In this document: positions 28,308 through 31,782 of the stretch, in pieces
Layout: each line of letters starts with the position of its first letter
Position numbering within the stretch: the stretch's first letter is position 1
Origin: Plantibacter sp. PA-3-X8
Lineage (GTDB): Bacteria > Actinomycetota > Actinomycetes > Actinomycetales > Microbacteriaceae
NCBI RefSeq assembly: GCF_003856975.1
Contig: NZ_CP033107.1
Location: forward strand, 2,914,001-2,978,000
Direction of reading: 5' to 3'
DNA length: 64,000 nucleotides
Made by a program: the position numbers and the translations under genes
The notes under the pieces: generated by a model
Databases searched by the model: none
The model's input: only the letters and a program-made list of their open reading frames with translations
Told to the model about the DNA's origin: nothing

Positions 28308-28311
<4 letters not shown>

Positions 28312-29153
28312 CGGCTTCCTTCGGAACCCGACTGGACGAGGTCTTCATCCGGTCGGGCCGACTCTGCGTCGGCATCGATCCGCACCGCTTCCTGCTCGAG
28401 GCGTGGGGGCTGCCCGACACCGCCGCCGGCGCGGGGGCCTTCGGCCTCGCCGTCGTCGAGGCCGCAGCCGGTCGCGCCGGGATCGTCAAGCCGCAGGTGG
28501 CGTTCTTCGAACGGTTCGGGTCGGCCGGGTACATCGCCCTCGAAGGGGTCCTCGCCGCGGCACGCGACGCCGGGCTCCTCGTGATCGGCGACGCCAAGCG
28601 CGGTGAGATCGGGACGAGCATGGAGGGCTATGCCGAAGCGTGGCTGACCCCCGGTTCACCGCTGGAGGTCGACGCCCTCACCGTGAACCCCTATCTCGGC
28701 TTCGGCTCACTGCAGCCGGTACTCGAGCTCGCCGAGCAGCACGGCAAGGGCGTGTTCGTGCTGACGGCGACCTCGAACCCGGAGGGTCGCGACGTCCAGC
28801 TCGCCGAGGACAGGGCCGGCCTCACCGTCGCGGCGTCGATGCTCGAGGAGATCGACCACTGGAACGCACGGCACCACCCCGGGGCTACCGGTTCGATCGG
28901 TGCGGTCATCGGAGCCACGCTCCGTCTCGAGGAGTTCGGCCTGACGGAGGTACCGCCGACGACCACGCTCCCGATCCTGGCACCCGGGTTCGGCCACCAG
29001 GGGGCCTCGGTCGCCGACCTCGGATCCATCTACGGCGACCTCGCGCCGGGCGTCATCGTCTCCGAGTCCCGGAGCCTCCTCGCGGCTGGACCCTCGGGGA
29101 TCGCGGACGCCGTCGAACGTTCCGTCGCAGCCGTGAGGAGCGCCCGTGGTTGA
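28308..29153 (+). CDS. pyrF: Orotidine 5'-phosphate decarboxylase (type 2)
   Basis: Converts OMP to UMP. The 281-residue protein is the longer type 2 form with the catalytic Lys98 in [11 protein letters not shown], the opening LCVGIDPH, and the phosphate site APGFGHQG near the C-terminus. GTG start overlaps carB by 4 bp. It overlaps the IHF-Gmk gene by 8 bp and supplies its AGGAG ribosome site. pyrD and pyrE are not in the window. Confidence 0.95.
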
Positions 29154-30060
29154 CCAGGAGCAGGACCAGCCCAGTAGGAACATGCCGGAGGTCGACCGGG
29201 CCGCCGCCTCACGTGAGGCCGTTCGCAAACGCCGCGCGCGTGCGACCGTCAAGGCGTCCATCGCCTCCGGTGCCCGCACCCCCTTGGAGGTACTCGACGC
29301 CGCGACCGCCGATCCGGACGGTATCGAGGGCGGCATCCGCATCACCGAGTACCTCCTCAGCATCCCGAGTGTCGGCGTCACCAAGCTCGGGCGCATCCTC
29401 GAATCGCTCGGCATCTCCTCGGTGAAGCGCCTCGGCGGTCTCGGGCGGTTGCAGCGGGATCGCCTCCGCGCCTTCATCGCCGAGCGCTACCCGGGGAACG
29501 CGCGCAGCCGACTCGTCGTGCTCGCCGGCCCGACGGCCGTCGGCAAGGGGACGGTGGCCGCGTACATCCGCGACCACTACCCGGAGGTGCACCTCTCCGT
29601 CTCGGCCACGACGCGCAAGCCCCGACCGGGGGAACAGCACGAGGTGAACTACTACTTCGTGACCGACGACGAATTCGACGGCCTCATCGAGGGCGACCGC
29701 CTGCTCGAGCACGCCACGGTCCACAACGCGTACCGCTACGGCACGCCACGCGAGCCGATCGAGCGTGCGCTCGCGGCCGGCGACAGCGCGTTGCTCGAGA
29801 TCGACATCCAGGGTGCCCGGCAGGTCCGGGAGGCGATGCCGGAGGCGACCCTGGTGTTCCTGCTGCCCCCGAGCTGGGACGAACTGGTCCGTCGACTGGT
29901 CGGACGAGGCACCGAGGACGAGGAGGAACGGGAGCGCCGACTGCGCACCGCGAAGGTCGAACTGGCCGCCGCGGACGAGTTCGACCACCGTGTCGTCAAC
30001 GACGACGTGGCCCGCGCGGCCCAAGAGGTCGTAGACTTGATGAAGATTCACGGGGATTGA
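29146..30060 (+). CDS. gmk: Fusion of actinobacterial integration host factor (mIHF) domain and guanylate kinase
   Basis: The 304-residue protein has two parts. Residues about 19-113 match mycobacterial integration host factor: a basic helix ([18 protein letters not shown]), a long helix, and the helix-two-turn-helix [18 protein letters not shown] (73-90) with a KRLGGLG loop. This domain binds DNA. Residues about 121-304 are guanylate kinase (GMP + ATP to GDP + ADP) with P-loop GPTAVGKGT (128-136), the GMP-binding [13 protein letters not shown] and NYYFV, and [10 protein letters not shown]. In Mycobacterium mihF and gmk are separate adjacent genes in this same place, so a join of neighbours is the likely origin. 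One open frame with no internal stop; GTG start with AGGAG six bases upstream. An internal start for free Gmk cannot be excluded. Confidence 0.92.
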
Positions 30061-30128: not shown

Positions 30129-30386
30129 ATGGCTGACAAGCTCAAGGGCATCATCGATCCGCCCATCGACTCCCTGCTCACCAAGGTCGAGTCCAAGTAC
30201 GCACTCGTGATCTTCGCGTCCAAGCGCGCGCGCCAGATCAACGACTACTACGCCGACCTCCACGAGGGCAGCCTGTTCGACAACGTCGGGCCGCTGGTCG
30301 ACTCGTCCGTCGAGGACAAGCCGCTCTCGATCGCGATGCACGAGATCAACGAGGACAAGCTCCAGATCAAGCCGATCGCCGAATAA
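30129..30386 (+). CDS. rpoZ: RNA polymerase omega subunit
   Basis: Small subunit that helps fold and assemble the beta' subunit. The 85-residue protein opens with [20 protein letters not shown] and has the family core [25 protein letters not shown] ribosome site lies 12 bases before ATG 30129. A TAGACT at 30032-30037 inside gmk could be an extra promoter. coaBC, which commonly follows rpoZ in actinobacteria, is absent; a strong terminator follows instead. Confidence 0.95.
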
Positions 30387-30395
30387 CCGCTTCAC

Positions 30396-30440
30396 CACGA
30401 CGAATCCGCCGGGCGCCAGACGACCGGCGGATTCGTCGTG
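30396..30440 (+). terminator. Strong hairpin terminator after rpoZ
   Basis: A perfect 17-bp stem, arms 30396-30412 and 30424-30440, with an 11-nt loop, begins 10 bp after the rpoZ stop. There is no T run, as in many actinobacterial terminators. It marks the end of the long pyr-gmk-rpoZ unit. Confidence 0.82.
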
Positions 30441-30505
30441 TCGGGCCCGTTCCCACCACCGCGACGCCTTGCGTCATGGACGGACGACGTGTCCGAGGCC
30501 TCGAC

Positions 30506-30511
30506 TAGAGT
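30506..30511 (+). promoter_or_regulatory. Candidate -10 element of metK
   Basis: TAGAGT at 30506-30511 is the best -10 match upstream of metK and predicts a leader of about 71 nt. No clear -35. I saw no SAM-riboswitch-like core in the leader. Confidence 0.4.
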
Positions 30512-30588
30512 GATGAACGGTCCGGCCCCGGAACACCGCGACGGCCGATCCCTCCACCATCGCACCACCACTTCCGACGGGAGACCGC

Positions 30589-31782
30589 ATGACCGAGCTG
30601 CGCCTGTTCACCTCCGAATCCGTGACCGAGGGACATCCCGACAAGATCTGCGACCAGATCTCGGACAGCATCCTCGACGCACTCCTCGAGGTGGATCCGC
30701 GCAGTCGAGTCGCCGTCGAGACGCTCGTCACCACCGGGCTCGTCCATGTCGCCGGTGAGGTCTCCACGAGCGGCTACGTCGACATCCCGACGATCGTCCG
30801 CGAGCGCATCCGGTCCATCGGCTACACCTCGTCCGACATCGGATTCGACGGCGACTCCTGCGGCGTGAGCGTCTCGATCGGCTCGCAGTCCGCCGACATC
30901 GCCGCCGGAGTCGACCATGCCTTCGAGTCCCGCGAGCAGTCCAGTGTCGACGCCTACGACCTCCAGGGCGCGGGCGACCAGGGCATCATGTTCGGGTTCG
31001 CGACCACCGAGACGCCGCAGTACATGCCGCTGCCCAGCTGGATCGCACACCGTCTCGCGGAGCGACTCGCCGAGGTCCGCAAGTCCGGCCAGCTCGACTA
31101 CCTGCGCCCGGACGGCAAGACCCAGGTCACCATCGGGTACGACGGCTTCCTCCCGAAGACCGTGGAGACGGTCGTGGTCTCCACGCAACACAATCCGGGT
31201 GTCTCCACGGAGCAGCTGCGTCGCGACGTCCAGCGTCACGTCATCGAACCGGTCCTCGCGACGGTCGAACTCGACAGCTCGAACGTGACGCACCTGATCA
31301 ACCCGACCGGTATCTTCGTCGTCGGTGGCCCGATGGGCGACGCGGGGCTCACCGGACGCAAGATCATCATCGACACCTACGGCGGAGCGGCTCGACACGG
31401 CGGTGGGGCCTTCAGCGGGAAGGACCCGTCGAAGGTGGACCGCTCGGCCGCATACGCCATGCGCTGGGTGGCGAAGAACGCGGTCGCCGCCGGATTCGCC
31501 GAACGTCTCGAGGTGCAGGTCGCCTACGCCATCGGCAAGGCCGCGCCGGTCGGACTCTACGTCGAGACCTTCGGGACGGCCCATGTGCCGGAGGCGGACA
31601 TCACGCGCGCGATCCGCGACGTCTTCGACCTCCGTCCAGCCGCGATCATCGCCGACCTCGACCTCATCCGCCCCATCTACGCCGCCACGGCGGCGTACGG
31701 GCACTTCGGCCGCGAGCTCCCCGACTTCACGTGGGAGCGTCTCGACCGGGTGGAGGCGTTGCGGTCAGCAGCCGGGCTGTAG
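30589..31782 (+). CDS. metK: S-adenosylmethionine synthetase
   Basis: Makes SAM from methionine and ATP. The 397-residue protein opens with [20 protein letters not shown] and has the other family signatures [12 protein letters not shown] and [23 protein letters not shown] 30589 has GGGAG seven bases upstream. priA starts three bases after its stop. Confidence 0.97.

Follow-up and report, generated by a model that had tools for sequence, protein, structure and literature searches.

A fusion of the nucleoid protein mIHF with guanylate kinase in Microbacteriaceae

The fusion gene and its neighbours

The DNA analysed here, called the window, is a stretch of 64,000 nucleotides from Plantibacter sp. 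PA-3-X8. One frame of the window, free of internal stops in the reading frame analysis, holds an mIHF domain followed by guanylate kinase (Gmk) (Table 1). The last 8 bases of the upstream gene pyrF overlap the start of this frame. The gene order pyrF, fusion, rpoZ corresponds to the order mihF-gmk-rpoZ with the first two genes joined. In M. tuberculosis mihF lies upstream of gmk and rpoZ according to PMC6155035, which also bears out the earlier note's statement that mycobacteria have mIHF and gmk as two adjoining genes. Directly 3' of rpoZ the window carries a gene recognised by eye as metK (30386-30589), while at another locus of the survey (L038) this place is taken by a frame that by eye resembles CoaBC.

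Table 1. Features of the fusion locus, in positions of the window
Feature	Position	Strand	Remarks
pyrF (orotidine 5'-phosphate decarboxylase), upstream gene	28308..29153	+	GTG start; name assigned by eye
GAGGAG ribosome-binding motif, 5 bases upstream of the GTG start	29135..29140	+	read from the sequence
mIHF-Gmk fusion gene	29146..30060	+	304 aa, GTG start
mIHF (H2TH) domain, residues 14-109	29185..29472	+	NF041260, PF22525 (residues 48-108), 6bek superposition (residues 22-112)
K94-R95-L96-G97, where stand-alone mIHF has its RRxR motif	29425..29436	+	third basic residue replaced by G
Linker, about residues 111-120	29476..29505	+	low-confidence block of the model, pLDDT 69
Guanylate kinase domain, residues 121-300	29506..30045	+	TIGR03263
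rpoZ (RNA polymerase omega), downstream gene	30129..30386	+	TIGR00690, 67.5 bits (cut-off 23.6)

NF041260 (actinobacterial IHF) matches residues 14-109 with a marginal 60.9 bits for a cut-off of 60 (62.7 bits in the whole-genome search), and TIGR03263 (guanylate kinase) gives an equivalog match to residues 122-299 with 211.7 bits (cut-off 160.45). Pfam is concordant, with 32.8 bits for H2TH_5 (cut-off 27) and 132.4 for Guanylate_kin (cut-off 25.2). In the predicted structure the domains themselves are well predicted and their relative placement is poor (pTM 0.66, with the weak linker block given in Table 1), so that a fixed interface between them is not supported by the model. The mIHF part is modelled with a long N-terminal helix and the H2TH fold of sIHF, and the model superposes on DNA-bound sIHF and on M. 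tuberculosis Gmk. Profile matches and superposition together confirm that the window gene encodes one protein, in which a short linker joins an mIHF domain to a complete guanylate kinase, in the domain order read earlier from the sequence. In the Gmk part, residues G133 K134 G135, S151, T155 T156 R157 R160, as well as E188, Y198, E218 D220, R250 and R254, are invariant in 26 fusions; these are residues of the P-loop and of GMP binding in guanylate kinase.

Searched over the genome at E<=1, NF041260 returned the fusion and a single further match of 14.7 bits, which by eye is ribosomal protein S13 and was rejected as a second mIHF. The stand-alone copy that the earlier note had considered was thus not found by this search. 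The fusion profile gave one match in the window genome (G000) at E<=1e-10, with 6 and 16 of 29 first-look candidates scored in two scans. Within the reach of these searches, the genome has no mIHF and no Gmk other than the fusion.

Distribution and origin of the fusion

Among 299 Microbacteriaceae genomes, 278 matched NF041260 at E<=0.001; four of these matches were weak (E 2e-4 to 9e-4), leaving 274 genomes with a clear mIHF. The domain is fused to Gmk in 272 of the 274, which answers the earlier note's proposal to map the fusion across the family with profiles. The 272 comprise the window, 30 loci read directly, and 66/67, 56/56, 80/80 and 39/40 genomes. Inspection of all 11 family rows in which a stop had been counted showed, in each, both domains in one frame upstream of that stop. 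Two genomes, G258 and G147, are broken by contig ends; in each, one piece spans mIHF into Gmk. Only two genomes depart from the rule. In G009 the domains lie in two overlapping frames (assembly completeness 86, contamination 5), and in G292 mIHF and Gmk are two genes (L041) on a contig, C7, that looks foreign by eye. With these exceptions only, an assembly or frameshift artefact was rejected, and the fusion is a real and old trait of Microbacteriaceae.

The survey could be anchored to names, since the locus DNA of two family genomes is common to Frondihabitans sp. PhB188 and Agreia sp. Leaf283, which identifies the surveyed family as Microbacteriaceae. Of the best 80 named loci listed, 79 are fused (76 filed under Microbacteriaceae, 3 unplaced); among these 80 the fused loci include Microbacterium, Curtobacterium, Leucobacter, Cryobacterium and Agromyces. 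Rothia amarae, the sole two-gene locus among the 80, was rejected as a fused outsider: its two genes are separated by one in-frame stop. The much reduced family genome G015 (0.93 Mb), which may be Tropheryma, still has the fusion, here with an extended linker (L045).

Twenty-five Microbacteriaceae genomes have no clear mIHF. Gmk was sought in 16 of them and stands alone behind pyrF in 13; the other three, without Gmk, have completeness of 75-88. Family members without mIHF have Gmk above the family cut-off. In four such loci (L046, L047 and L048 of genus g70, L039 of g65) the frame of RpoZ has a long C-terminal extension, acidic and rich in alanine; these stop-to-stop frames measure 138-157 aa, compared with an 85-aa protein in the window.

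In a tree of Gmk, PyrF and RpoZ (111 rows, quick IQ-TREE search) the fused and Gmk-only family rows form one clade (SH-aLRT 99) without any two-gene member. The simplest account is a single origin of the fusion near the base of Microbacteriaceae. Gmk-only rows form two separate groups, one of four rows next to a fused row (93) and one of eight rows on a branch of its own (98). The four-row group most likely lost mIHF from the fused state; with the weak branching at the base of the family clade, the eight-row branch may have lost it on either side of the fusion event.

Outside the family the two-gene state prevails in the order. A sample of 119 genomes contains 8 Microbacteriaceae, all fused, and 111 genomes from 19 other families, where none of 100 mIHF-bearing genomes (mIHF at E<=1e-4) has the fusion and the two genes adjoin. 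In 88 of these 100 the mIHF frame is shorter than 180 aa. The 12 longer frames were rejected as hidden fusions, as all 12 give two separate matches. One family of the order, f4, has no mIHF match in any of its eight genomes (G301, G318, G334, G349, G363, G376, G389 and G402), with Gmk present in 7 of the 7 searched.

A class sample of 394 genomes contained, among the matches listed, a second fused group, f44, an actinomycete family of small genomes, perhaps Nanopelagicaceae (order Nanopelagicales). It counts 40 genomes of 1.2-2.2 Mb: in 34 one row spans both domains, four have two genes and two have one match each. Fifteen of the 34 spanning rows were opened and all 15 are single frames. In the family f51 the fusion occurs in 2 of 17 genomes (genus g219); mIHF lies in frames of 104-190 aa in nine and is missing from six. 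The other 21 spanning rows on the class list, outside f1, f44 and f51, all contain a stop and are two genes in 21 of 21 cases among the matches listed. A phylum sample of 149 genomes gave no further fusion among the matches listed; it has 27 spanning rows, and the 26 inspected, all but G877, each hold two genes.

In a tree of mIHF and Gmk the f44 and f51 fusions stand apart from the Microbacteriaceae clade (99), and a Gmk tree places two genera with separate genes, g250 and g239, outside the fused rows of f44. Because of these two placements the join in f44 looks independent, and the fusion there seems to have arisen separately from that in Microbacteriaceae; f51 is possibly a third origin, with a support of 90 only. 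The two-gene genus g248 falls among the fused f44 rows on the Gmk tree, with weak placement, and might represent a return to two genes.

How the genes came to be joined can be approached from two-gene relatives. We opened 44 loci, most of them chosen because one match spanned both domains, and 41 are two-gene loci; mIHF and gmk share a frame in 39 of the 41, and exactly one stop lies between them in 34, where the loss of a single stop would therefore give the fusion. In the order, in contrast, both genes are in one frame in only 7 of 52 two-gene loci, so that stop loss alone would not suffice in most of these; the frames differ in the other 45, and a small deletion or insertion is therefore as likely as stop loss. 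Near the base of Microbacteriaceae, neighbouring mihF and gmk would thus have been joined by loss of the intervening stop or by a small deletion.

Residues and selection in the fused mIHF domain

We compared basic residues among distinct domain sequences, 88 stand-alone and 153 fused (140 from Microbacteriaceae, 11 from f44, 2 from f51), in the numbering of L050; these rows are related by descent and not independent. Twelve positions are basic in more than 80% of the 88 stand-alone proteins. Eight of them, R12, R23, R26, K30, K57, K72, R86 (as K) and R87, are basic in 129-140 of the 140 Microbacteriaceae fusions, with R23, R26, K30 and K72 basic in all 140 and K57 in 139. K18, K34 and K55 are basic in 28, 14 and 32 of the 140 respectively. 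At R89, the last arginine of RRxR, a basic residue is present in 79 of the 88 stand-alone proteins, versus 1 of 140 Microbacteriaceae fusions and 1 of 153 fusions overall.

The two other fused groups show the same loss at R89. In the 11 f44 fusions R89 is basic in none, K18 in 7 and the other ten positions in 10 or 11; neither of the two f51 fusions has a basic residue at R89 or K18, and both have one at each remaining position. R89 is thus the sole position lost outright in all three groups. The mycobacterial counterpart of R89, within the RRxR arginines, is reportedly needed for DNA binding. Nevertheless R89 is not basic in 9 of the 88 stand-alone proteins either, including two-gene members of f44 and f51 (both loci of g248 in f44, and 3 of 8 two-gene loci in f51), so that fusion as the cause of the arginine loss is not established. 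Loss of DNA-contact residues, which would have told against the earlier note's reading, is therefore found only in part: most contact residues are kept, and almost every fusion has another residue in place of one conserved arginine.

Both parts appear constrained. Across six genomes of one genus, Nei-Gojobori counts give a mean dN/dS of 0.076 in mIHF and 0.023 in Gmk, by which measure both domains are under purifying selection. Between species, the ratio of mIHF to Gmk divergence is 1.75 in Microbacteriaceae fusions (first 70 rows) and 1.37 in f44 fusions, against a range of 0.37-1.98 within two-gene families. The fused mIHF domain thus diverges faster than most, yet within the two-gene range. 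Genus g31 (L121, L122 and L124; genomes of 1.2-1.8 Mb) has a strongly diverged fused mIHF whose KR motif has worn away, which looks like decay in situ: all three rows have lost the first arginine of the pair, and two of them the second as well.

Proposed function, alternatives and known systems

We propose, with a probability of roughly 0.55, that the protein would be a functional GMP kinase whose DNA-binding module has been retuned, so that a share of the kinase is held on the nucleoid and the dose is fixed. The Gmk part would have normal guanylate kinase activity, and the mIHF part, a monomeric H2TH module on a short flexible tether, would still bind DNA, probably more weakly than stand-alone mIHF or in a different manner. 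The kinase would in this way spend time on the nucleoid, both activities would come at a fixed 1:1 dose, and the full-length protein would be the working form. The family-wide single frame, the single clade, the low dN/dS, the 8 of 12 basic positions kept, the adjoining genes outside the family, the match of the model to DNA-bound sIHF and M. tuberculosis Gmk and the retention of the fusion in L045 favour this proposal. Counted against it are the loss of R89, the loss of K18, K34 and K55 in most Microbacteriaceae fusions, the mIHF divergence 1.75 times that of Gmk and the motif erosion in g31. Nor can tethering be essential everywhere, as 13 of the 16 mIHF-less family genomes searched have Gmk on its own. 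The probabilities given to the proposal and to its rivals overlap and do not sum to one.

A neutral fusion, in which two independent modules are simply tolerated on one chain without new function, overlaps the tethered kinase, which adds the tethering to it. We hold it to be possible, with the odds against it. The genes adjoin outside the family and are one in-frame stop apart in some lineages, and within the family no reversion to two genes is seen besides the doubtful G009 and G292. At least two separate fusions, with the same arginine lost in each, hint instead at adaptation, although some two-gene relatives also lack this arginine.

Somewhat less probable, and in our view unlikely though, like the neutral fusion, a serious rival, is that the fused mIHF domain is off DNA and kept for the structure of Gmk, as an appendage for folding, stability or oligomer formation. 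Such a role is consistent with the third arginine missing from the fused groups, a divergence above that of many two-gene families, the degenerate motif of g31 and the persistence of stand-alone Gmk where the mIHF domain is missing. But a mere appendage needs no such charges as those at R23, R26, K30 and K72 (140/140) and K57 (139), and family members that lack the domain still score Gmk above the cut-off.

More speculative, and rather improbable, is the extension that the fusion would be a repeatedly evolved device placing GDP/GTP supply or sensing on the chromosome, the arginine being lost as DNA contact was retuned to the state of the kinase.

The earlier note had raised the idea that DNA binding by mIHF responds to GMP, ATP or (p)ppGpp on the Gmk part. 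The domains are physically linked and both are kept family-wide, and (p)ppGpp inhibits the Gmk of several phyla according to PMC6783271. The linker, however, is short and variable, and the model, with its low pTM and uncertain linker, predicts no fixed interface; we found no support for this control and consider it highly doubtful. The note's premise that (p)ppGpp inhibits Gmk elsewhere stands for those phyla and does not extend to Proteobacteria (PMC6783271), nor readily to M. tuberculosis, whose Gmk is said to be regulated differently in PMC6892785. As the effect depends on the phylum and Gmk regulation in M. tuberculosis is said to differ, control by ppGpp cannot be assumed here.

Least probable of all, by a very low estimate, is that Gmk comes chiefly from an internal start or that the protein is cleaved in two: GTG and TTG codons are present ahead of the Gmk part, but from 40 codons before the Gmk motif to 2 codons into it a start codon with a ribosome-binding motif occurs in only 5 of 30 fused genes, at differing positions and not in the window gene, and the linkers of 26 fusions have no common cleavage motif by eye. 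The conserved internal start envisaged by the earlier note was thus not found in these 30 genes, and support for an internal start or cleavage otherwise was not found.

PMC6155035 and PMC10028186 describe mIHF as essential in mycobacteria and, in M. tuberculosis, as one of the most abundant proteins. In Microbacteriaceae, a family of bacteria common in the environment, and the doubtful G009 and G292 apart, the domain of this essential mycobacterial nucleoid protein is found only within a metabolic enzyme. The fused, separate and missing states are natural experiments on the role of mIHF and on whether its high dose is needed, and they bear also on the coupling of a nucleotide-supply enzyme to chromosome structure. 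When about 300 aa long, a "guanylate kinase" from Microbacteriaceae should not be taken as a plain enzyme.

Both parts belong to known families. The mIHF-Gmk fusion was not found among the titles and abstract openings listed in searches of the open-licence literature, and the same holds for its family-wide reach and its second origin. NF041260 is typed equivalog_domain, so NCBI curators may know of longer carriers. Among the closest known systems, mycobacterial mIHF (Rv1388) and Streptomyces sIHF (SCO1480; 4itq, 6bek) share the sequence family and the fold, and most of their conserved basic residues are kept in the fusion; they differ in being stand-alone, of about 105 aa, and in having the RRxR motif. 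M. tuberculosis Gmk (Rv1389; 1s4q, 1znw) is a chain without an mIHF domain, unlike the fusion. A guanylate-kinase fold within a multidomain protein is also found in the MAGUK proteins (PSD-95 and relatives), eukaryotic scaffolds whose non-catalytic GK part is joined to SH3 and PDZ domains; the fusions, in contrast, keep their Gmk residues invariant.
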